DNA from: Schlesneria paludicola DSM 18645
GTDB lineage: Bacteria > Planctomycetota > Planctomycetia > Planctomycetales > Planctomycetaceae
Length of the DNA: 64,000 bases
Reading direction: 5' to 3'
Assembly: GCA_945862235.1 (NCBI GenBank)
Contig: CAMAYU010000012.1
Span: 1-64,000 of the forward strand
Below are positions 28,037 through 44,975 of this stretch, piece by piece. Position 1 is the first letter of the stretch. Each line of letters begins with the position of its first letter. Made by a program: the position numbers and the translations under genes. Below the pieces are notes generated by a model that worked only from the letters and a program-made list of their open reading frames with translations, did not search any database and was not told the origin of the DNA.

Positions 28037-28171
28037 ACACGGCACAAAGCCAGACGTTGCTGAGCGGGATGGCGTCAGCCCCCTGGTTCTTCCCAAGAGG
28101 GCTGACGCCCAAGAACCAGGGGGCTGACGCCACCCCGCTCAGATGTCTCATCACTGACCACGCGAGGGACA
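28037..28171. repeat. GAGCGGGGTGGCGT-family element
   Basis: Runs from CACGGCACAAAGC to TCATCACTGACCACGCGAG. The hairpin 28061-28141 has arms starting TGAGCGGGATGGCGTCAGCC and ending GGCTGACGCCACCCCGCTCA. The rest of the gap up to 28637 has no recognisable gene; coding-like stretches there lack any domain. Confidence 0.85.
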
Positions 28172-30092: not shown

Positions 30093-30180
30093 AGACATCC
30101 GAGCGGGGTGGCGTCAGCCCCCTGGCTCTTGGGCGTCAGCCCGTTTCCCAAGAACCGAGGGGCTTACGCCGCCACGCCCA
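30093..30180. repeat. GAGCGGGGTGGCGT-family element
   Basis: Copy beginning GACATCCGAGCGGGGTGGCG and ending GGGGCTTACGCCGCC. It ends only a few bases before the probable start of the lipoprotein gene at 30194. The 485-base gap 29709-30193 otherwise shows no gene. Confidence 0.8.
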
Positions 30181-31315: not shown

Positions 31316-31440
31316 CGGCACAAAGTGAGAGTTTTCCGAGCGGGGCGGTGTAAGCCCCCCGGTTCTTGGGCGTAAGCCCTCATGGGAAGAACCGAGGGGC
31401 TTACGCGGCTCCGCTCAGATGTCTCATCACTGACCGCGTG
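31316..31440. repeat. GAGCGGGGTGGCGT-family element
   Basis: Runs from CGGCACAAAGTGAGAG to TCATCACTGACCGCGTGA, showing both outer ends of the family. The inner hairpin arms begin CCGAGCGGGGCGGTGTAAGC and end GCTTACGCGGCTCCGCTC. Confidence 0.85.
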
Positions 31441-31529: not shown

Positions 31530-34500
31530 ATGGCCATCGACATCCGAACGACAGATCTCAATGCGGCTGACCGGTCCTCACGCGCGAGCGGTTCCGAGTT
31601 CTCTCTGTGGGAGGGCGTGAAGACGGTTCTGGCTCCGGTCGCTTCGCTGAAGCTGACCGTCGCGCTGTTTGCCCTGTCTATCGTGCTGATTTTTGTCGGC
31701 ACGCTGGCTCAGGTGGACAAGGACATCTGGGAGGTCATCGGTCTCTACTTCCGTTGCTGGATCGCGTGGGTGCCGGTTCAAGTTTTCGTGCCGCCCTCGT
31801 TTGTCATCGCCAATGAAGTGCGCGACGCCCAAGACAAGTTGCTCGAACCGACCTACTGGCTCATGGGCTTGATTCCGCTCGGCAGTTGGAAGGCGGACAA
31901 CATTCCCGGCGGCTTCTGGTTCCCCGGTGGAGCGTTGATCGGCGTGTTGCTGGGGGCGAATTTGTTCTCGGCGCATTTGATCCGATTCAAGGCGGAGGCA
32001 CGCGGCACGCGGTTGCTCGCCGGACTCGCGGCCATCGCCGTGGGTGGCGCGGCGACGTGGTTTGTTATCGCAGCGGGAAGCAACTCGAAGGGGATTCAGG
32101 CTGAGCCGTTCATCTCCTACAGCACGCTGTGGATTGGTTTCGTGGGATCACTCGCGCTGCTCGGTCTCGCGTCGGCCTATGCGACCGTGCAGCAGTGGTC
32201 GCGTCCGGTTAACGCGGCGAATCAAGCGAAGGGCTGGTTTGTCCGAGGTCTGTTGGCGATCGTGACCGTCGGACTGGCGGTTCTCGTCGGTTGGCTCTTC
32301 TCGCAGGGAGACGCGGTTCGCCCGAGTGATTCGTCGCTCCGCATCCTGTGGCAGTTGACTCAGGCGACGTTCGCCGGTGCGGCACTGTTGGCGGGCTGCT
32401 GGGTCGTGTTCAAGAAGCGCGCCGGGATCGTGCTGCTGCACGCGGGAATCGGCTTGATGATGTACTACGAATTGCACGTCTCGCTGACGGCGATCGAAAC
32501 GCAGATGAATCTCGAAGAGGGTGAGACCTCCAGCTTCGTCCACGACATCCGCACGTTCGAGTTGGCGGTGATCGACAAGAGCGACCCGAATTCCGATCGC
32601 GTCGTGGCCATACCGCGTTCGCTCTTGCTCGATTCGGCTCCGACTTCAGCGACGGGAGCTGCCAAACCAATCGACTTCCCCGAGCTGCCGTTCACGGTCG
32701 AGATCACGCGATTCGAACCGAACTCGCACCTGCGAGCGGCCTCGTCCCAAGATGCCAATCCCGCGACGACGGGACTCGGCGTCGAATGGTTTGCGGAATC
32801 GAAGCGGCCCGGTTCCGGAACTGACGCGGACAGCAAGGTCGATATGGCGACAGCTTATGTGACGCTGAAGTCGCGCGACGGTGGCAAGCCACTCGGCACG
32901 TATCTCGTCGGGATGCTGCTGTCGATGAGCGGTGAGACCGACACCGTGACCGTCGGGGACAAGGTGTACGAACTCAGTCTGCGGGCGAAGCGTTACTACA
33001 AGGACTACCGCTTCACGCTGAAAGATGTCCGCAAGGAAGACTACATCGGGACGAGTACGCCGCGCAACTATGCCTCGACGCACGCGATTGTCGATCCGAC
33101 GCGGAACGTCGATGAAGAGAAGACCATCTGGATGAACAACCCACTGCGGTTTGCCAACGAAACGTTCTATCAAAGCGGCTATCACAAGGGACAAGACGGC
33201 AAAGAACACACCACATTGTCGGTCGTGGCGAACACGGGCTGGATGATGCCGTACGTCAGTTGCATGTTGGTCGCCATCGGGATGCTGGCCCATTTCCTGA
33301 TTCTGCTGGTTCGCTTCCTGACACGCGGCGACGAGCCGGACCTTGCCGCCGCTCCCTCGACGGGCGCAATGAGCCTCAAGGAAAAGCTGGGGATCAAGCC
33401 CGCGCAGGCTCCCCTCGTCTCGGCCGTCGAATCGAAGCCCGCATCGCAGTGGCTGTCGGTGGCTGTGACGGCGACGATCGTTGTTCTCTGCGCGGGCTAC
33501 ATCGGATCGAAGGCCCGGCCGCCCAAGACGTCTCCGCTGGAGTACGACCTTGCCGCGTTCGGTCGCATTCCCGTCGTACAAGATGGTCGCGCGAAGCCGC
33601 TCGATTCCGCCGCCCGTTCGGCATTGCTCGAAATCTCCGGCAAGACGACCGTCACGGTCGGGCGGGACAAGGACAAAAAATATCTCCCCGCCATCCAGTG
33701 GTTGCTCGACGTGATCGCCGAAAACGACACAGCCGAGAACTACGAAGTCTTCCGCATCGAGAACCTCGAACTGCACGAGACGATGGGCGTGAAGAAACGA
33801 GATGGCATGAGGTACTCGCGCAAGGAGCTGCGGCCGCGATTCCAACTGAACGAAGCATCGCTCGCTCTACTGCGAGACAAAGGTTTTTCACCGACCGTCT
33901 TGGCCAAGGTCGAACCGCTCAAGGACCAGCGGTTGAGCAGCGATGACTTCCGCGACCAGCTCGCCAAGCTGCTGTCCGAAACCGAATTCAAACAGCTCGG
34001 CGGCACACTGCTGCGAGTTTCCGAGAGCGATGAGTTCCAGAAGCAAGTGGCCAACGCACGCGAAGTGGCCAAGAAGGATCGTCGCTTACTCAGCGTCTAC
34101 CAGCGTAAGGTGCTGCAACTGAGCGACAAGCTCTCGACGTTCGACAACATTCAGTTCGCGTTCGGCCTGCACCATCGCGTTCGGGGCGAGACCCCCGAAG
34201 AAGTGATCGAGTCGTTTCAGATGGTCACGAAGTTCGAGAAGATGGTTGCCGAACAGGGGCAGCCGATCATGGCTGTTGGCTCGACAGAGAAAGACCAGCC
34301 GTGGCGAACGCTGGCGGGCGCGTGGTTGGAAAACACGATGAACATGATCCGCTTGAAGCAGGAGCCGAATCTGAACGTCACCGCCTGGGAAGACATTCTG
34401 AAGGCGTACTCGAAGGATGAAAAGAAAGACTTCAACCGGGCGGTCGAAGCACAACTGAGCCGTCTCACCAAGGAACCGCCTCAAATGGTTCAGCCCGCGC

Positions 34501-35441
34501 GCATCCGGTTTGAAGCGTTCTTCAACCAGTTCCAACCGTTTTCGATCGCCATCGTGCTGTACGTCTTCGCGTTCGTTTTGTCGGCATGCGGCTGGCTCGG
34601 CTGGACGCAGGGCTTCAACCGCGCGGCCTTCTGGTTGCAGGTGCTGATTCTTGCGTTGCATACGTTCGCGCTGGTCGGCCGCATCTACATCTCGGGCCGG
34701 CCGCCGGTGACGAACCTCTACTCGTCGGCCATCTTCATCGGCTGGGCCTGCGTCGTATTGGGGCTGATTCTCGAACTGATCTATCGGATCGGGATCGGCA
34801 GCCTGATCGCGTCGGTCGCCGGTTACGCAACGCTGCTCATCGCCGACAGCCTGTCAGTCAGCGGCGACACGTTCACCGTGCTGCAAGCGGTCCTCGACAC
34901 GCAGTTCTGGCTGGCGACGCATGTGACGTGCATCACGTTCGGATACGCGACGACGTACTTGGCCGGTCTGCTCGGCATCGTCTACGTCGTGCGCGGCGTC
35001 TTCACGCCATCACTGACGCGCGACATCGGTCGCGATCTGAATCGGATGATCTACGGCACGCTCTGCTTCTCGATCTTCTTCAGCTTCGTCGGAACGGTCC
35101 TCGGCGGACTGTGGGCCGACGATTCGTGGGGCCGATTCTGGGGTTGGGATCCGAAGGAGAACGGCGCGCTGATCATCGTCCTTTGGAACGCGCTGGCGTT
35201 GCATGCGCGCTGGGGCGGCTTGGTGAAGGAACGCGGTCTGGCGGTCCTTGCCATCGCGGGCAACATCTTCGTCAGTTGGTCTTGGTGGGGCGTGAACGAA
35301 CTCGGCGCGGGCCTGCATTCTTACGGCTTCACGGAAGGAACGATTCGCAATCTCGGTCTCTGTGCAGTCGCTCATCTCACGCTGATCGCCATCGGCTCGC
35401 TACCGAAGTCGTACTGGCGCAGCTCCCGCAACACGGTGTAG
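31530..35441 (+). CDS. Cytochrome c biogenesis ResB-CcsA (CcsBA-type) fusion
   Basis: 1303 residues, a single protein joining the two system II haem-delivery subunits. The N-terminal half (about 1-600) is ResB/CcsB-like: hydrophobic helices (LTVALFALSIVLIFVGTLAQ) around a periplasmic domain with FYQSGYHKG, and a helix near 570. A long soluble linker (about 660-1000) follows. The last ~300 residues are CcsA/CcmC-type helices with the haem-binding WWD signature GRFWGWDPKENGALI near residue 1203 and conserved His in ALHARWGGL. It would move haem across the inner membrane and ligate it to apocytochromes c, fitting the many CxxCH proteins of planctomycetes. Start ATG 31530; a terminator follows at 35447. 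Confidence 0.93.
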   Translation: MAIDIRTTDLNAADRSSRASGSEFSLWEGVKTVLAPVASLKLTVALFALSIVLIFVGTLAQVDKDIWEVIGLYFRCWIAWVPVQVFVPPSFVIANEVRDAQDKLLEPTYWLMGLIPLGSWKADNIPGGFWFPGGALIGVLLGANLFSAHLIRFKAEARGTRLLAGLAAIAVGGAATWFVIAAGSNSKGIQAEPFISYSTLWIGFVGSLALLGLASAYATVQQWSRPVNAANQAKGWFVRGLLAIVTVGLAVLVGWLFSQGDAVRPSDSSLRILWQLTQATFAGAALLAGCWVVFKKRAGIVLLHAGIGLMMYYELHVSLTAIETQMNLEEGETSSFVHDIRTFELAVIDKSDPNSDRVVAIPRSLLLDSAPTSATGAAKPIDFPELPFTVEITRFEPNSHLRAASSQDANPATTGLGVEWFAESKRPGSGTDADSKVDMATAYVTLKSRDGGKPLGTYLVGMLLSMSGETDTVTVGDKVYELSLRAKRYYKDYRFTLKDVRKEDYIGTSTPRNYASTHAIVDPTRNVDEEKTIWMNNPLRFANETFYQSGYHKGQDGKEHTTLSVVANTGWMMPYVSCMLVAIGMLAHFLILLVRFLTRGDEPDLAAAPSTGAMSLKEKLGIKPAQAPLVSAVESKPASQWLSVAVTATIVVLCAGYIGSKARPPKTSPLEYDLAAFGRIPVVQDGRAKPLDSAARSALLEISGKTTVTVGRDKDKKYLPAIQWLLDVIAENDTAENYEVFRIENLELHETMGVKKRDGMRYSRKELRPRFQLNEASLALLRDKGFSPTVLAKVEPLKDQRLSSDDFRDQLAKLLSETEFKQLGGTLLRVSESDEFQKQVANAREVAKKDRRLLSVYQRKVLQLSDKLSTFDNIQFAFGLHHRVRGETPEEVIESFQMVTKFEKMVAEQGQPIMAVGSTEKDQPWRTLAGAWLENTMNMIRLKQEPNLNVTAWEDILKAYSKDEKKDFNRAVEAQLSRLTKEPPQMVQPARIRFEAFFNQFQPFSIAIVLYVFAFVLSACGWLGWTQGFNRAAFWLQVLILALHTFALVGRIYISGRPPVTNLYSSAIFIGWACVVLGLILELIYRIGIGSLIASVAGYATLLIADSLSVSGDTFTVLQAVLDTQFWLATHVTCITFGYATTYLAGLLGIVYVVRGVFTPSLTRDIGRDLNRMIYGTLCFSIFFSFVGTVLGGLWADDSWGRFWGWDPKENGALIIVLWNALALHARWGGLVKERGLAVLAIAGNIFVSWSWWGVNELGAGLHSYGFTEGTIRNLGLCAVAHLTLIAIGSLPKSYWRSSRNTV

Positions 35442-35480: not shown

Positions 35481-35565
35481 CGAGGCGGGCGCGCCGGGAC
35501 CTGATCGCTCGAATGCTCACAACCAGCGCAGCTTCCTCGCCTTGATTCGCGCGGTCGATGATGAG

Positions 35566-35625
35566 ACTTGCGAGCGGGGCGGCGTAAGCCCCGCTCGCAA
35601 ACAACTTACTTTGTGCCGTGCGAGG
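35566..35625. repeat. Short GAGCGGGG-family repeat copy
   Basis: GCGAGCGGGGCGGCGTAAGC followed by GCTCGCAAACAACTTACTTTGTGCCGTGCG. The inner part of the family is deleted, leaving a compact hairpin and the shared TTTGTGCCGTGCG flank. Confidence 0.75.
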
Positions 35626-35713: not shown

Positions 35714-36943
35714 TTATTTGTCGATCGGCTTGGTGGGCCGCTGGCTGAGCAAGGTCATGACCAGCGCCTGTTCCATCTCGCCGGTCTTGAAGCCGAAGGG
35801 ACCGCGGCCGCTTTTGTAGGCGACTCGTCCCGCAGAGTCGATGACGTACAACCGGGCGGGCATCCCGCTGTAAGCGTTCCCCGTGGAGTCGTGGATGTCG
35901 TCGATCAGCAGCGGGATCGAAGGCTTGAGCAACCGGTGGCACTGCTGCGCGACATCGACTCGCTCGGCGTAGTTCTTCGGTTGAGTCACCGTCACGCCCA
36001 CGCGGGCATTCGATTCCATCTTCCAGCCGTCGGTCGGATGGGCCTCGCGCACATAGACGCCGAGGAACACCGCGTCTTCCTTGAACCGGCGTGAGACATC
36101 CTCGACACCGGGATACATCGAGCGGAACGGGCCACAGGTGAAGTTGCCGAACACGAGGACCACCGGCTTCCTACCGATCTGTTCCGAGAGGCAAATGGCC
36201 TGACGACCGTCGTGGGTTTTGAGGACGAAATCGGGAGCCGGGTCGTTCAACGACGGTCCCTCTTGCAGCGAACCGACCTCGCCCGAAAACAGCCCCGCCA
36301 GCAACTGTCCCTTCGTCGGGGCGTCACCGGGGTAATAGCTCGATGAGATCCCCGCCAGCCACGCATCGCGAATCTGTTCGGACGTGACGATGTCTTCACC
36401 TCCGGAAGCCTCGTCGAAGAACTTCAGCCACTCCTCGCGTGAGAGCTGCCCGTCGCCGTTCGGGTCCATGCGTCGGAAGAGGCGATTGACGAGATAGGCG
36501 TGCTGCACCCACGGATGGCGTTCTGACCAGTCCAAGTCTTCGGCCGCGATCAGGCCGTCTCGGTTGCGGTCCAGTCGTTGAAACCAGACAGCATCACCTT
36601 GAAAGGACTTCGCATCGATCCCTTCATCCGCCGCAACGCCGTGCCGCTCGGCCAGCCAAGCCCAACTGAATCTCGATTGCGCCGGGCCGAACCAGCCCTG
36701 CCCCGGCCCCATGGATCCGCCCTGCGCGATGGCCAGATACATCCGCATCGCCTCGGGCACGATGCGCCCCGCGAACGCGCGTTCGATTTCCTCGACCGGG
36801 ACATCGACCAACTCGGGACCAACCACAAACGGCGGCGGGCCGTTGATCGGAGTCAACGCGGAAGCAGGTTGCGAACCGTCGGCAGCAGCCAGCAGCAGTG
36901 AGGTCATGACAGCGAGCCAATCGATAGAGACGAGTGAGGGCAT
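35714..36943 (-). CDS. EF-hand protein with deiodinase-like thioredoxin-fold domain
   Basis: 409 residues from the ATG at 36941-36943, with a hydrophobic N-terminal signal (WLAVMTSLLLAAADGS). The middle has two EF-hands: DRNRDGLIAAED and DPNGDGQLSREE. The C-terminal domain is thioredoxin-like and carries the iodothyronine-deiodinase landmarks PVVLVFGNFTCGPFRSMYP and VYVREAHPTDGW. In animal deiodinases the corresponding position of FTC is selenocysteine (SCTUPPF); here it is Cys270. Iodothyronine chemistry is not implied, but a peroxidase/reductase role using Cys270 is plausible, perhaps calcium-modulated. It lies 79 bases downstream of the tandem AhpD-like gene on the same strand, probably co-transcribed. 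Confidence 0.8.
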   Translation of the reverse strand: MPSLVSIDWLAVMTSLLLAAADGSQPASALTPINGPPPFVVGPELVDVPVEEIERAFAGRIVPEAMRMYLAIAQGGSMGPGQGWFGPAQSRFSWAWLAERHGVAADEGIDAKSFQGDAVWFQRLDRNRDGLIAAEDLDWSERHPWVQHAYLVNRLFRRMDPNGDGQLSREEWLKFFDEASGGEDIVTSEQIRDAWLAGISSSYYPGDAPTKGQLLAGLFSGEVGSLQEGPSLNDPAPDFVLKTHDGRQAICLSEQIGRKPVVLVFGNFTCGPFRSMYPGVEDVSRRFKEDAVFLGVYVREAHPTDGWKMESNARVGVTVTQPKNYAERVDVAQQCHRLLKPSIPLLIDDIHDSTGNAYSGMPARLYVIDSAGRVAYKSGRGPFGFKTGEMEQALVMTLLSQRPTKPIDK

Positions 36944-37022
36944 GGTGAGTCCCATTATCAATACGCCGCTCCCGAACCGAGGCAACGCCAATGAGTGACT
37001 CGCTGGAGTTCTCGAACCGGTG

Positions 37023-38390
37023 TCATTTGGCTTGGCCAACGAGCGTCACGGTGTCTTCGAGAGGCAGTCGCAACATTTCGGTGAAGCGGTCAAACATGTT
37101 GGCGTCGCAGGTCAGAAAGATGATCTCGGCGACTTCGTTGTCCGAAAACAGTTTTCTCAGACCGGCCACGTCCTCATCGACGATGGTGTGCGGTGCCGAG
37201 GTCAGCTTGCGGGCGAACGCGAATGTCGTCCGCTCGGTTGGAGTGAAGGCGTCATCGCTCGCGCCGATCGCGAACAGCACGTCGTCGGAAACTCCCAACG
37301 CGTTGAGCCTCGTGCGAGCGTGAGCCATCGAGTACCACGCGCGGTTCTCGCGCGAGACGACCCATGCGATCTGAGCCTTCAGTTTCGGATCGAGCTTCCC
37401 ATCGCGGGCAATCGCCTGACGATGCTTCCACAATCGCAGAGCGTTTGTCGGCGAGTACGCCGCCGCCTGAAACCACGCGGGAGGAATGATTCCAGGAGTA
37501 TCGGCGGCCAGAACCTGCAGTGCCGCTTCAATGGAAGGAGGCTTCACCGACGAAGTGCGATTGCGACAGGCTGCCATCGCCGCTTCGGCCTCAGCTCGTG
37601 ATTCCCAGGCCGCGCGCGGCTTGTAGTCGAACGGGGCGACCTTCGTTTCAATCTTCGAGAACTCGTCGGATGTCGGCGTGTCGAGCTGACTCGGCTCATC
37701 GCCACCGAACGACTTGTCCTGTGGGATGCCGGTCGAGGCGGTCCAGCGATTCGTCGAGTTGTTGCCGGCGATCGTCTGCAGGATGTCCACGAGCTGCTCG
37801 TCCTTGAAGTGCTGCTTCACGGCTGCAATGTCCTCGTCCGTGACGAGGTGCGGCGTGAGCGTCACCTTGCGTGTGAATTTCATCGCGGCCTGTTCGTCGG
37901 CCGGAAACGCGGTCCACTTGCAGTCGAGCGACGCGATCTGGTCGTCGGTCATCCCCGCTCGTTTGAGCTTCAGTTCCTGATGACCCAGGCAGTATTGGCA
38001 GTCATTCGTGCGCGACACGATCCAGAACAGCCGTGTCTTGAAGGCGAAGTCGGGGGCTTGCTGCGCCTGTGCGAGCGCCGCATTGACGTTCGTAGTCCCG
38101 CCCGTGCGCCCACTCGACGCGCCCGATGAACCGCGCGACGTTTGCCACGACTCAGGCAGATAGATCGACCGTAGCCGCCCGTTGTTGACCGAGCGTCGTC
38201 CAGCGGCGATCTCGTCCGGCGTAAGCGCGGGGAGCGGAATGCGGGCCTCGCGCTGCTTGAGCGCTTCGATCTTCTGCTTCATCTCGGGCCGAGTCTTCGT
38301 CAGCCCGAAGTCGCTCTTCTCAGCCGACCACCCACTGACACAGGCGGCCGTCACACACATCACGCCGCTCAACCAACTGATCTTTTGCAT
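37023..38390 (-). CDS. Tandem carboxymuconolactone decarboxylase (AhpD-like) protein
   Basis: 455 residues with a signal peptide-like N-terminus (SGVMCVTAACVSGWSAE). Two AhpD-like modules can be aligned by eye. The first has TNDCQYCLGHQELKLKRAG (CxxC plus His, the redox site of the AhpD family) followed by FTRKVTLTPHLVTDEDI. The second has ENRAWYSMAHARTRLNALG, where both cysteines are lost, followed by FARKLTSAPHTIVDEDV. A known-family role would be a thiol peroxidase or reductase in the envelope, with the second module structural. The downstream gene encodes a deiodinase-like thioredoxin-fold protein, which supports a redox job for the pair. Start is the ATG at 38388-38390. Confidence 0.85.
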   Translation of the reverse strand: MQKISWLSGVMCVTAACVSGWSAEKSDFGLTKTRPEMKQKIEALKQREARIPLPALTPDEIAAGRRSVNNGRLRSIYLPESWQTSRGSSGASSGRTGGTTNVNAALAQAQQAPDFAFKTRLFWIVSRTNDCQYCLGHQELKLKRAGMTDDQIASLDCKWTAFPADEQAAMKFTRKVTLTPHLVTDEDIAAVKQHFKDEQLVDILQTIAGNNSTNRWTASTGIPQDKSFGGDEPSQLDTPTSDEFSKIETKVAPFDYKPRAAWESRAEAEAAMAACRNRTSSVKPPSIEAALQVLAADTPGIIPPAWFQAAAYSPTNALRLWKHRQAIARDGKLDPKLKAQIAWVVSRENRAWYSMAHARTRLNALGVSDDVLFAIGASDDAFTPTERTTFAFARKLTSAPHTIVDEDVAGLRKLFSDNEVAEIIFLTCDANMFDRFTEMLRLPLEDTVTLVGQAK

Positions 38391-38481: not shown

Positions 38482-38874
38482 TCACTCATCGGAACGAAAC
38501 ACCGTCACCACGGGAGACGTTCCCACGACGTAGGCGACCTCCTGCTGAGTCTCTTTCCCCGCGTCGTCCTTGAGAGTTCGACGCACCGTCAAATGCAGGT
38601 TCGTGCCGTCGCTCCGCTCGTCCTTCAGAATTTCAAACGACTCCAATTTCTTGCCGGTCTCCCAGTCGGAGTCTCGACCAATGATCTTCGGCTTGAGATC
38701 ACCGACCTGCTTGCCGTTCTTCCACGCGGTGAGGAATTCGGTGCAGGCTTCGCGCGCCTTGGGTTGATTGAGTGACAGGCTGCGCGCGGTGCGACTGCAA
38801 CCCGTAAGTGCGATGCTCAACGTGAAGAGTACGAACAGGCAATGCGACCAATTCACGATCCGACGGGATTTCAT
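38482..38874 (-). CDS. Small lipoprotein
   Basis: 130 residues. The signal ends in lipobox LTGC (SIALTGCSRTARS), so it should be lipid-anchored. The mature part contains a compact beta-type domain (ESFEILKDERSDGTNLHLTV). It directly follows a DUF1559 gene on the same strand; pairing of a DUF1559 protein with a small lipoprotein recurs in planctomycetes. I do not recognise a function. Start is the ATG at 38872-38874. Confidence 0.72.
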   Translation of the reverse strand: MKSRRIVNWSHCLFVLFTLSIALTGCSRTARSLSLNQPKAREACTEFLTAWKNGKQVGDLKPKIIGRDSDWETGKKLESFEILKDERSDGTNLHLTVRRTLKDDAGKETQQEVAYVVGTSPVVTVFRSDE

Positions 38875-39026: not shown

Positions 39027-39989
39027 CTAGAGGTCACCGATGATCTCACCCCCTTCGCGCGTCCCGACAGCTCGCCAAATTCCCAGATCGATGTTGGACG
39101 ACACGAAGCGGACGGAGCCATCGCACATCAGGACATGCACGCCGCCGGTGTGCTTACTGTTGGCGGTCGTCGCGATGCGGCCCGGTGGGTACATGCAAGA
39201 AAGATCATTGGGCGTGAGAATGTGGTAGTAGTAGGTCGTGGTGTGGTCGGGAACCATCCACGGAACGCCTCCGTTCGACTTCCCCTGCTTGGTGAGATCC
39301 TGCACGTTCACAGCGCGGCATTGATCACGCGCTTCGTCGGCCGTGGTGGGATTCGTCCCCGGCTGGAACGTATCCGTGTTACGGGTACTCAACGCGTTGC
39401 TGCCATCGCCCAACATGCGTTCGGACATCATCGCGGTGTTTGTCGTGCCGTCCGAGATGTGGCCCATGCGTGTGAAACTGTTTTGATAGAAGACTCCGTT
39501 TGAAATCGGCAGCCCGTAATTCGGATCGCTGGCCAGAGTCGGAGGAAGCGAGTTCAGAATCCCAGTGCCAGTGTTCGTGTAGTAGCTGTTCCGGCCCCCT
39601 GCGAGTGACGGCATCTGATCGGTATCTGAAGGACACCGGAACGCGGCCAGATTCGTCTCACGAGGAACCGCGTTGTTCGCGTGATTGCCCGCCACATTGA
39701 AGTCGATCACGTTGAACAGCGAGGCCTGATCCAGAAACGGCAGCAGGCGCGGATGCGTCGAATGGGAATTCGTGATGTTCTTCGCCATCGGGAATCCCTT
39801 GAAGTTGTCGTGGTAGTTATGCAGGGCCAGCCCGAGTTGCTTGAGGTTGTTCTTGCACTGAGTCCGCCGGGCGGCCTCGCGCGCTTGCTGGACCGCTGGC
39901 AAAAGCAGTGCGATCAGGACCGCGATGATCGCGATCACGACTAAGAGTTCGATCAACGTGAATGCTCGACGAGAAAGAGAACGCGGCAT
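39027..39989 (-). CDS. DUF1559 protein with type IV pilin-like N-terminus
   Basis: 320 residues from the ATG at 39987-39989 (longer upstream reading lacks the pilin start). The N-terminus is a classical prepilin cleavage/methylation segment: [20 protein letters not shown], with Glu at mature position 5. DUF1559 landmarks are [20 protein letters not shown] and the C-terminal H-x9-DG motif ([16 protein letters not shown]). Planctomycete genomes carry tens of these; they are thought to be secreted by the type II/IV pilus-like machinery and may form surface structures. A lipoprotein gene follows. No operon with prepilin peptidase was seen. Confidence 0.93.
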
Positions 39990-40358
39990 GACAACACCTT
40001 TCAAAAGGAACGCGCGACTGCGCGGAATGGAAATTCGACAAGAAACTCGCGAAGACCGATGACCCGGAGTGGGCGAGGTGTTCGCCCGTGGTAACGGATA
40101 GGGCGGGCGGGCAAGGCGCTGCGCACGCGGAATCGTGATGAGGCTGCAACGACAACCCGCGACGGGCGGCGTCATCAGCTCTCGCGATGAAACTCATGCA
40201 CGTAGGGCAGAACGAGCCAGCCGTGACAGCGTGTCGCACGTGGAAGCCATTCCACGAAGACGATTCCGATCACCGCGTTTCGGTGCAGACGCGCAACACG
40301 CCGCGATGTTCTTCCCGAATCGGAAGGACTCGACCCAAGCGCTGTCGCCAGCGAAACG

Positions 40359-40790: not shown

Positions 40791-40870
40791 CTTGCACCGC
40801 CCGGAACCACACCAAACACGACCAAACTTCAAAAACAACTCGGTTCGTGCGGACTACGCTCGTCCTGCAT

Positions 40871-40965
40871 CCACCGTTGGGATCCACCGTTGGGATTCAC
40901 CGTTGGGATTCACCGTTGGGATTCACCGTTGGGATTCACCGTTGGGATTCACCGTTGGGATTCAC
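40871..40965. repeat. 13-bp tandem repeat array (seven units)
   Basis: The unit CCGTTGGGATTCA (minus strand TGAATCCCAACGG) is repeated seven times with exact 13-bp spacing; the ACCGTTGGG core starts at 40873, 40886, ... 40951. Only the first unit differs (GATCCA instead of GATTCA). The array lies 80-175 bases upstream of the secreted-protein start at 40790. The surrounding gap 40791-41252 has no gene. Confidence 0.92.
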
Positions 40966-41130: not shown

Positions 41131-41251
41131 GTGAGCGGCAAGACTTGGCTGACCCACACCAACCCGAAGTGTGAACGAGGGCGAAGTCGATCGGCATCCT
41201 CGTCCACACTTCGGGTTCGTGTTTGCGGGTAAACCATTTGTTGCCGCTCAC
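41131..41251. repeat. CACACCAACCCGAAG-family MITE-like element
   Basis: 121 bp bounded by perfect terminal inverted repeats GTGAGCGGCAA (41131-41141) and TTGCCGCTCAC (41241-41251), with inner arms CACACCAACCCGAAGTGTG and the complementary CACACTTCGGG. No transposase is encoded. Confidence 0.85.
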
Positions 41252-41669: not shown

Positions 41670-42869
41670 CTAGACGCGCGGCCTCAGTCCGCACGATAGA
41701 TCGCGTTCGAGATCGGCGGCGTCCTCCAAACCGATCGACAAACGGACGAGGCCGTCGCCGATACCGTAGTCGGCGCGTTCGGCGGCGGTCATGAATTTGT
41801 GAGACGTTCCGGCGGGATACGACATCGTGGTGCGAGCGTCCGCCAATGTCGGCGAGAACGGGATGACATCGGCCAGCGCGCGGAAGAGGGCATCGACGGC
41901 GGAGCGGCCTCCCGCCAGATCGAACGCCAGCATCCCGCCGCAACCGTGCGGCAGCAGTCGTTGCGCGAGAGCGTGATCCGGGTGCGACGCCAAGCCGGGA
42001 TAGAAGACTTTGCTCACGCGCGGATGTTGTTCCAGAAACCGCGCGACGGTGAGTGCGGTTTGCGAGACTCGTTCCATGCGCAGTGGCAACGTGCGCAGAC
42101 CGCGCGACGCGAGCCAACTCTCAAACGGATTCGCATTCACGCCGTAGAGACTCGACATCGCACGAATCTTGCGGATCATGCTGTGCGAACCGACGACCAC
42201 GCCCGCCATCACGTCGCCGTGTCCATTCAAGTATTTCGAGACGCTGTGCCAGACGAGTGCCGCACCGTGTTCAATCGGCCGAATCAGACACGGCGTGCCG
42301 AACGTGCTGTCCACCAGCAGCGGAACGGCCCCCAACGCGGAGACGAGTCGCGGCAGATCGGCCACCTCCAACAGCGGGTTCGAGATCGACTCGACAATGC
42401 ACAGCTTGGTCTCGGGCGTGATAAGGCTTGGCAACGACCCGAGGTCGGCGACATCGAAGTACGTCACCTTCAAACCGAACGACGCGGCGAGGTGATTGAG
42501 CAACTGCCCCGTTCGCCCGTAAAGGACCCGCGCGGCGAGCACGTGATCGCCCGACTTGACCAGCGCCATCAACACCGCCGTCAACGCACCCATGCCTGAC
42601 GCTGTGACCACGCCCGCCTCGGCCCGCTCCAACCGAGCCACATCGCTGGCGAAGGCTTCGTGATTGGGATTGCCGTCGCGCGTGTAGATGTAGCCCTTCT
42701 CGCGCCCGCCCGTCACCGCATCGAGTTGATCGAGCGAGTGCAGGTCGAACGCGGTTGTCATGTAGACGGGGGGCGAACTGGTGCGCGTCGTGAAGTCCTC
42801 GGCCCAGCCTCCGCGTGCGGCGAGGGTCGAGTCTGCAGAGGCGTTTGGTGCGTCGTGGGGCTTAGTCAT
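41670..42869 (-). CDS. Cys/Met metabolism PLP-dependent enzyme (gamma-synthase/lyase family)
   Basis: 399 residues, the usual length of MetB/MetC/MetY-type enzymes. N-terminal SPPVYMTTAFDLHSL; RDGNPNHEAFASDVARLE; TASGMGALTAVLMAL; PLP-lysine motif HSVSKYLNGHGD with Lys212; C-terminal FSPTLADARTTMSYPAGTSH and GLVRLSIGLED, the family ending with the substrate-carboxylate Arg. It could be cystathionine gamma-synthase/lyase, methionine gamma-lyase or an O-acylhomoserine sulfhydrylase; these are not separable by eye. Start is the ATG at 42867-42869; no cofactor or amino-acid biosynthesis neighbour narrows the role. Confidence 0.92.
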   Translation of the reverse strand: MTKPHDAPNASADSTLAARGGWAEDFTTRTSSPPVYMTTAFDLHSLDQLDAVTGGREKGYIYTRDGNPNHEAFASDVARLERAEAGVVTASGMGALTAVLMALVKSGDHVLAARVLYGRTGQLLNHLAASFGLKVTYFDVADLGSLPSLITPETKLCIVESISNPLLEVADLPRLVSALGAVPLLVDSTFGTPCLIRPIEHGAALVWHSVSKYLNGHGDVMAGVVVGSHSMIRKIRAMSSLYGVNANPFESWLASRGLRTLPLRMERVSQTALTVARFLEQHPRVSKVFYPGLASHPDHALAQRLLPHGCGGMLAFDLAGGRSAVDALFRALADVIPFSPTLADARTTMSYPAGTSHKFMTAAERADYGIGDGLVRLSIGLEDAADLERDLSCGLRPRV

Positions 42870-42904: not shown

Positions 42905-43009
42905 CCGCGTGGGCACGAACCCGAAGTGTGAACGAGGATGTCGATCGACTTCGCCCTCGTTCACACTTCGGGTTGGTGTGGGTCAGACAAGTCTTGCCGC
43001 TCGCCTATC
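42905..43009. repeat. CACACCAACCCGAAG-family element (inverted copy)
   Basis: Arms ACGAACCCGAAGTGTGAACG and CGTTCACACTTCGGGTTGGTG flank a GATGTCGATCGACTTCGCCC loop; the right end reads TCTTGCCGCTCGCC. It lies between two minus-strand genes in a 175-base gap. Confidence 0.82.
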
Positions 43010-43044: not shown

Positions 43045-43851
43045 TCAGCGGTCGATGACTTCGGCGTCTTCGAGGAAATAGAGGCCGAACGGCTTGTCGT
43101 CGGCGGCGACCATTTCCAACTTGAGGCGACCGACGACATCGAAGGCTCGCGTGGCGGGGATGTAGCGCGTCGTCTTGCCCGCCTTCAGATCGATCTGCAC
43201 GAGATCGTAGACCTTGGGGTCGCGACCGAAGCAGCAGATTTGGTTGTCACGGGCCAGCACGAAACGTTCGATCCCTTCGGTCTCAAACGTCGGGAACATG
43301 TAGCCGCGAATCTTGATTCGCTGGCCGTTCAGTCCCTTCAACCAAGCCGGCATGTGGTCGATGGCGTCGATCGTGACGGGCTCCATGTTGAGAACCTTCA
43401 GCAGGTCGAGGTCATCGTAGGAGACCCGCAACGCTTTGGAGGCTCCGTCGGTGCGAAAGGTCTTCTCGGGGATCAGCACTTCGATCTGGCGTGGCTCGGC
43501 GGCGACAGGCTTTTCGACGGAAGTCGCCTTCATCAGCGACGCGATGCTCGCACCATCCACGACATTCACCGGGCCGAGGGCTGAGACGGCAAGCTGTTCT
43601 TCGACGACAGGCGTTGTCGCGAACGGGTCGGTTGGTGAGATGGCCTCGATGTTGTCGGCAGTGTCGTTGACGACGGCGTTCGCGGGCGAGGCATCCTCAT
43701 TCTTGGTCGCCGTTTTTTTGGAGGCGGCTGACTTTTCGAGTGGTCGGTAACTGCTGAGGTCCGCGCCGGAACAGCCTGCGATTACCAATGCCCACATCGC
43801 GAGAGTGGTCGAGGGAATCATGCGGCCAGTGGCGGACGAGTGGGATGTCAT
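43045..43851 (-). CDS. Lipoprotein with a CCFG-motif domain (DUF3299-like)
   Basis: 268 residues. A start at 43821 (MIPSTTLAMWALVIAGC) would give an ideal lipoprotein signal with lipobox VIAGC; the ATG at 43851 adds ten residues. After a low-complexity linker the C-terminal ~110 residues contain IKIRGYMFPTFETEGIERFV and LARDNQICCFGRDPKVYDLV. This paired-Cys motif is shared with the product of 44047-44766, and the whole domain resembles DUF3299-type proteins. Cys-Cys-Phe-Gly plus surrounding Asp may bind a metal, but the role is unknown. The two genes lie head to tail on the same strand, separated by an inverted repeat. Confidence 0.72.
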   Translation of the reverse strand: MTSHSSATGRMIPSTTLAMWALVIAGCSGADLSSYRPLEKSAASKKTATKNEDASPANAVVNDTADNIEAISPTDPFATTPVVEEQLAVSALGPVNVVDGASIASLMKATSVEKPVAAEPRQIEVLIPEKTFRTDGASKALRVSYDDLDLLKVLNMEPVTIDAIDHMPAWLKGLNGQRIKIRGYMFPTFETEGIERFVLARDNQICCFGRDPKVYDLVQIDLKAGKTTRYIPATRAFDVVGRLKLEMVAADDKPFGLYFLEDAEVIDR

Positions 43852-44046: not shown

Positions 44047-44766
44047 TTAGTACAGCGTCTTGGCTTTACCGAAGAACTCGCAATCGAGTTGGTAGACCGG
44101 TCGCAGGCCGGTTTCATCGACGGTCGGTTCCGCTTTGAAGATGCCCGAGACGGCGACCATCACTTTGTTGTCGTGAAAGTGGACGGTCTTGTCACCGTTC
44201 ATCTTCACCAGAATCATATCGGTCGTTTTGGGCTGTCCACCGAAGCAGCAGTCGCCGTTGTCGCGGCAGAGGACAAAGGACTTGATCCCGGTCATCTGCT
44301 TCGTCGGGTACATGTAGCCTTTGATCATGACCTTTTCACCGACCAGCTTCTGTACGTCGGGATGAATGCCAAGCATGCCGTTCTCAGTGCTGAAGCCTTT
44401 CTTCGAGATGTCGGTGGTGAAGTTCGTCCGTGCATATCCCTGCGGAACTTCCGTGGCATAGCTGTGAACGTGCATCGCGGCGAACCCGACGAACATCAAC
44501 GCCTGCGAGACCAACGTCACGCAGGCCAATCGGCCACCGCTCAGCGCCCCCTGCGATTGCCTGATCTGACGCCAGGCAATGACGGAAACAATCACGCCCG
44601 CCAGTGGAACGATCAACAACACGTCCCAGATGCTCGCCACCAGTGAGATGACCACGAAGGCCATGCTGACGGGAACCAGCGCCGGGATGGGGCGATAGAG
44701 AAATTCCTGGTCATCGGGGGCGATGTTACGAGGTGCATCCAAAGTCATCTGATCTGCTGCCAACAT
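44047..44766 (-). CDS. Membrane-anchored CCFG-motif protein (DUF3299-like domain)
   Basis: 239 residues from the ATG at 44764-44766; a longer reading frame runs into an inverted repeat and is rejected. Three hydrophobic helices follow an acidic N-terminus: VSMAFVVISLVASIWDVLLI, PLAGVIVSVIAWRQIRQ and TLVSQALMFVGFAAMHVHSY. The C-terminal domain is paralogous to that of 43045-43851: VMIKGYMYPTKQMTGIKSFV, LCRDNGDCCFGGQPKTTDMI. Both presumably expose the domain on the same side of the membrane. No enzyme activity can be assigned. Confidence 0.75.
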   Translation of the reverse strand: MLAADQMTLDAPRNIAPDDQEFLYRPIPALVPVSMAFVVISLVASIWDVLLIVPLAGVIVSVIAWRQIRQSQGALSGGRLACVTLVSQALMFVGFAAMHVHSYATEVPQGYARTNFTTDISKKGFSTENGMLGIHPDVQKLVGEKVMIKGYMYPTKQMTGIKSFVLCRDNGDCCFGGQPKTTDMILVKMNGDKTVHFHDNKVMVAVSGIFKAEPTVDETGLRPVYQLDCEFFGKAKTLY

Positions 44767-44888
44767 GATGATTTGCCTTGAAAAATAGCGCGGATCGCCG
44801 ATTGATTGCCTGCGCGAGAACCGGGATTGCCGCAACGCGGAGATATCGTGATGAAGCGCGCGGCCCAAGTCCAGACGGTGGGCAATAG

Positions 44889-44975
44889 CCCCGTAGGATG
44901 GGCACTTCTGCCGATCCGGATTTTTACCGTTTTTTCTCATAAGCAGACGGGCAGAAGTGCCCATTCTACTGGGGC
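44889..44975. repeat. GTAGGATGGGCACTTCTGCC inverted repeat
   Basis: CCCCGTAGGATGGGCACTTC...GCC and GGCAGAAGTGCCCATTCTAC...GGGG pair over about 23 nt. It lies in the 850-base divergent gap 44767-45619, which holds no convincing gene; an open frame there has no recognisable domain. Confidence 0.8.

Follow-up and report, generated by a model that had tools for sequence, protein, structure and literature searches.

Animal iodothyronine deiodinases carry an active-site selenocysteine (Sec) on a thioredoxin-like fold. In DIO3, residues Thr169, Tyr197, and Glu200 form a hydrogen-bond network, and His202 together with Arg275 clamps the substrate (PMC12025243). Bacterial deiodinase-like proteins, which share the same domain and use either Sec or Cys as the nucleophile, appear in the 2005 Sargasso Sea selenoproteome, which suggests a redox role for them and also includes AhpD-like proteins with a CxxU motif (PMC1088965). 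A 2026 review lists both families and notes that Prx-like genes cluster with AhpD-like genes (PMC13188914); the available text of a 2008 ocean survey gives other selenoprotein fusions and no deiodinase-AhpD fusion (PMC2398784). The other system that bears on the present locus is the mycobacterial AhpC-AhpD pair, in which AhpD passes electrons to AhpC (PMC12028322).

The window, a stretch of 64,000 nucleotides from Schlesneria paludicola DSM 18645, encodes a 409-residue protein with EF-hands and a deiodinase-like domain at 35714 to 36943 on the minus strand (an ATG at 36955 could serve as the start instead of that at 36943). This protein is a member of the PF00837/NF038285 deiodinase family. 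It scores 93.3 bits against PF00837 (T4_deiodinase, cut-off 27) in a Pfam profile search, the domain occupying C-terminal residues 233 to 394 (35762 to 36247, minus strand), and 524.1 bits against the NCBIfam model NF038285, "deiodinase family protein" (curated cut-off 250). The NF038285 match is full length, spanning residues 57 to 400, and the EF-hand relatives match over the same length, indicating that the EF-hand part lies within the known family. No difference excludes the protein from NF038285; the AhpD-like partner gene described below lies outside the model. In contrast, of the redoxin-type Pfam profiles, AhpC-TSA reaches 28 bits, barely over its cut-off, and Redoxin reaches 19, below it.

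The closest solved structures by sequence are mouse DIO3 (PDB 4tr3, phmmer E 9e-22) and DIO2 (9h48, E 1.5e-18). An AlphaFold model of the 409-residue protein, built with 24 relatives (pLDDT 84.9, pTM 0.85), has a predicted deiodinase fold, and its best structural matches are again DIO2 (Z 15.4, 172 residues aligned, rmsd 2.9) and DIO3 (Z 15.1, 181 residues, rmsd 4.5), ahead of ResA-type proteins (Z 13.9) and the AhpE/Bcp peroxiredoxins (about 12.9). An ordinary TlpA redoxin is ruled out by this ranking of profiles and folds, and the CxxC of TlpA/ResA redoxins is absent from the protein, whose site reads TCGPFR. The outcome named beforehand as refuting the original prediction, closest matches among TlpA-type redoxins, was therefore not seen. 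The original prediction had assigned the gene to the deiodinases from two motifs, GNFTCGPFR and YVREAHPTDGW. Both are present and align in register with FGSCTCPPF and YIEEAHPSDGW in mouse DIO3, and with DIO2 as well, and Cys270, which had been placed at the selenocysteine position, aligns with DIO3 Sec170. The assignment is thus borne out by profiles, PDB sequence search, structure prediction, and the tree of the domain.

The reading preferred here, to which a probability of about one half is given, is that the protein would act outside the cytoplasm as a peroxiredoxin-like thiol reductase, bind Ca2+ through its EF-hand pair, and be re-reduced by an AhpD-like partner much as AhpD re-reduces AhpC. 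The candidate partner is the tandem AhpD-like gene that had been noticed next door. It encodes 455 residues at 37023 to 38390 on the minus strand, upstream of the deiodinase-like gene and separated by 79 bp from its ATG at 36943. The product exceeds the cut-offs of PF02627 (33.7 bits against 23) and TIGR01926 (85.5 against 81.8), and its first repeat holds CQYC in the context CQYCLGH, a CxxC (Cys131-Cys134, 37989 to 38000, minus strand) with the following His; the second repeat is degenerate (alignment A2). By its sequence, the neighbor is an AhpD/CMD protein, having both the CMD profile and the CxxC with His.

The association between the two genes is conserved, up to gene fusion. The source genome has a single AhpD-like protein of this type and a single PF00837 protein, encoded side by side. 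Among 150 genomes of the order, an AhpD-like gene is found in 40 of the 50 with a deiodinase-like gene and in 16 of the 100 without one (Fisher p 2e-14, not corrected for kinship); 40 genomes have both genes, 10 the deiodinase-like gene only, and 16 the AhpD-like gene only. By hand count, 26 of the 40 distinct rows of the EF-hand Cys clade have an AhpD-like domain either next door or in the same protein. Three further rows give weak partial matches, and in 11 no AhpD-like gene lies nearby, some of the surrounding stretches being short. In ten of the 26, one open frame covers both domains (L003, L032, L045, L050, L052, L055, L058, L115, L118, and L119). The L115 fusion is on a one-contig genome, and in L050 Pfam finds EF-hand, PF00837, and CMD within one 857-residue frame; the frames of L045 and L058 are unbroken only if the motif TGA is read as Sec. 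In the fused type, the active motif is in the second AhpD repeat (CNYCMGH, CFYCMGH). A model of the fused protein is of low confidence (pLDDT 68.7, pTM 0.53) and lends no support to docking. Two other loci contain AhpD-like proteins of 910 to 954 residues, each with four AhpD-like domains, beside a deiodinase-like gene (L114, 7979 to 10708; L116, 4704 to 7565).

It is somewhat unlikely, although the best of the alternatives, that the protein acts as a peroxidase or thiol reductase without any help from the AhpD-like protein, the two having only regulation or compartment in common. Members without an AhpD-like neighbor do exist, including Sec forms outside the clade: none of 20 regions around non-clade members (18 Sec, 2 Cys) has an AhpD of this type, as judged by a model made from the EF-hand clade's own type that may miss divergent AhpD proteins. 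The occurrence of AhpD-less members both inside and outside the clade indicates that the deiodinase domain does not strictly require the partner. Against independence stand the repeated in-frame fusion and the genome-level co-occurrence, and a thiol reductase with the AhpD-like neighbor as its likely electron donor is preferred.

Sec/Cys exchange is found at both active sites. In a phylum sample of 246 genomes, 76 have a deiodinase-like gene with an in-frame TGA. In the loci examined, this TGA lies exactly at the position of Cys270, in motifs of the FGSYTUPPF type; the 409-residue protein lacks the active-site Sec of the animal enzymes, having a TGT codon there (36134 to 36136, minus strand). 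The selA gene is present in 70 of the 76 TGA-carrying genomes versus 94 of the other 170 (p 2e-9, not corrected for kinship), and in all 10 TGA carriers checked within Planctomycetaceae, the organism's own family. It was found in none of 10 checked genomes of the genus, nor in the source genome. A search for tRNA-Sec in the source genome gave only matches below the cut-off, a level also reached in all 14 control genomes, making the absence of selA the better evidence. As to a SECIS signal, the 48 nt that begin at the TGA do not differ in free energy from those of the Cys genes (mean z -0.25 versus -0.37, p 0.94), so the Sec reading rests on codon position and selA rather than on SECIS. In a tree of 80 domains, which requires three Sec/Cys changes, the EF-hand clade is one group (support 100/98), within which three Sec rows branch first, followed by 40 Cys rows. 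The best reading of the window protein is a Cys form whose lineage lacks the Sec machinery. At the partner's active site, TGA stands in place of the second motif Cys in several relatives (CFYU, CLYU, CQYU), and in L106 such a motif lies beside a Sec deiodinase-like gene. In one selA-bearing genome (L039/L106, 1771 to 8920), a single cluster holds two deiodinase-like genes, one a Cys form and the other carrying TGA, along with an AhpD-like gene whose CFYU motif contains TGA.

The likeness to DIO2 and DIO3 extends from the fold and the nucleophile position to the EAHPxDGW motif and several active-site residues. Within the T-[CU]-x-P-F and EAHPxDGW segments, Thr269-Cys270 and Glu300-Ala301-His302 are invariant in alignment A1. 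In DIO3 numbering, verified on the residues that PMC12025243 names, Thr169, Tyr197, Glu200, Ala201, His202, and Arg275 persist as Thr269, Tyr297, Glu300, Ala301, His302, and Arg380, indicating that the core catalytic surroundings are retained. Other residues are changed: Ser167 to Asn, Cys168 to Phe, His219 to Pro, Phe258 to Pro, and Glu259 to Ala, with no Cys counterpart for Cys239. The protein thus lacks both proposed resolving cysteines and has lost some of the proton relay and of the hormone-binding site, and these alterations make thyroid-type deiodination by this protein unlikely. Unlike DIO2 and DIO3, the window protein has Cys for Sec, added EF-hands, and a different second cysteine. 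A Cys within residues 331 to 337 is present in 58 of 60 relatives, compared with about 2% for other seven-residue stretches; it lies in the helix after the EAHP segment, about 65 residues past the nucleophile, where the animal enzymes have no Cys. Here it is Cys335 (35939 to 35941, minus strand), a candidate resolving cysteine.

The retained hydrogen-bond network and substrate clamp (PMC12025243) would also suit a reductive dehalogenase that acts by the deiodinase mechanism on small halogenated aromatics rather than on a thyroid substrate and takes its reducing equivalents from the AhpD-like protein. This is quite improbable, given that Asn, Pro, Pro, and Ala replace DIO3 Ser167, His219, Phe258, and Glu259 nearly invariantly across the EF-hand clade, that Arg275 is missing from most Sec forms, and that no dehalogenation genes were seen near the locus. 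Its extended version, an exported, calcium-controlled enzyme for environmental haloaromatics with a dedicated and often fused AhpD-type donor, and so a bacterial counterpart of thyroid-hormone deiodination, is very improbable.

Two EF-hand stretches, as originally predicted, are matched in Pfam. Loop 1 (DRNRDGLIAAED, residues 125 to 136, 36536 to 36571, minus strand) matches EF-hand_7, and its residues D125, R126, D129, G130, and D136 are conserved at 90% or above in alignment A1; loop 2 (DPNGDGQLSREE, residues 160 to 171, 36431 to 36466, minus strand) matches EF-hand_5 and EF-hand_1. Since both loops are intact, the pair likely binds Ca2+, which may serve structure or regulation, and it is these loops on which the description "calcium-linked" depends. 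Some Sec forms that lie outside the clade have EF-hands as well (L014, L018, L021, and L029). A hydrophobic segment, WLAVMTSLLLAAADG, lies close to the N terminus of the 409-residue protein, making a signal sequence plausible, and the AhpD-like protein has a probable one of its own. From these N-terminal stretches, both proteins are probably exported, and the proposal of an envelope redox enzyme is reasonable.

To our knowledge, no activity has been measured for any bacterial member of the deiodinase-like family. In the mechanism suggested by analogy with AhpC-AhpD, Cys270 would attack an oxidized substrate, perhaps a peroxide, a disulfide, or something similar. The helix cysteine, here Cys335, would then resolve the intermediate to a disulfide, and the CxxC of the AhpD-like partner would reduce the Cys270-Cys335 disulfide, as AhpD does for AhpC. 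The analogy fits in that a thioredoxin-fold enzyme with a nucleophile and a second cysteine is paired with a CxxC protein. Mycobacterial AhpD receives its electrons from a lipoyl protein of the cytosol, and an exported AhpD-like protein would therefore need another electron source, for which no candidate was found. The mycobacterial system likewise joins a thioredoxin-fold thiol enzyme to a CMD-fold CxxC protein in which AhpD feeds AhpC (PMC12028322); here, in contrast, a deiodinase-like protein takes the place of AhpC, its partner has two AhpD repeats and probably a signal sequence, and the two are often fused.

Two genes on the minus strand precede the deiodinase/AhpD pair and recur beside it in about 15 relatives. 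The first (38482 to 38874) encodes a small putative lipoprotein of 130 residues, present as a single copy in the source genome. The second (39027 to 40175), a conserved neighbor, encodes a DUF1559 (PF07596) pseudopilin-like protein; with about 40 DUF1559 copies in the genome, its presence is weak evidence by itself. Both genes are also found where the AhpD is missing (L057), and they may share a unit with the pair. Beyond them, the window contains a 13-base unit (ATTCACCGTTGGG) arrayed in roughly seven or more copies at 40869 to 40965 and an 89-base inverted repeat, 97% complementary (41133 to 41221 and 42914 to 43002), that flanks a PLP-dependent sulfhydrylase/lyase-like gene (41670 to 42869). 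The neighboring genes at 43045 to 43851 and 44047 to 44964 share the motif GYM[FY]PT...F.L.RDN..CCFG and have no NCBIfam match. On the other side, an interspersed, partly palindromic repeat of about 83 bases, 72 to 81% alike, occurs at 28059 to 28141, 30098 to 30180, and 31335 to 31417, with a part at 35563 to 35592.

A convergent ResB-CcsA fusion gene (31530 to 35441) ends about 270 bp from the deiodinase-like gene, and ResA-type proteins are the next best fold, but a ResA/CcsX-like thiol-disulfide reductase serving that gene in protein folding or cytochrome c maturation is scarcely probable, with an active site of TCGPF rather than CxxC, DIO2 and DIO3 outscoring it in both profile and fold, and the Ccs gene near none of the fetched relatives. 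The link to Ccs and cytochrome maturation was dropped on this last ground.

As to novelty, the original prediction stands in its family assignment and in its AhpD-like association, which proves conserved and reaches gene fusion; the novelty is smaller than it implied, since an equivalog-type model, NF038285, exists and the bacterial members of this family have been in the literature since 2005 (PMC1088965). What appears new, as far as the open-access literature goes, is the AhpD-like context of the EF-hand form. No description of that form, or of a deiodinase-AhpD cluster or fusion, was found there (most subscription papers lie outside that search), and for the bacterial selenoproteins neither EF-hands nor an AhpD-like cluster or fusion comes up in the accessible parts of PMC1088965 and PMC13188914. 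The bacterial proteins have a twenty-year history, and no report of a substrate or partner for them was found. The repeated adjacency and fusion with AhpD-like proteins, together with the swapping of Sec in and out of both active sites, now provide a specific partner to test. In addition, a soluble Cys protein from bacteria might express more readily than the animal selenoenzymes, offering a route to how this fold came to remove iodine.
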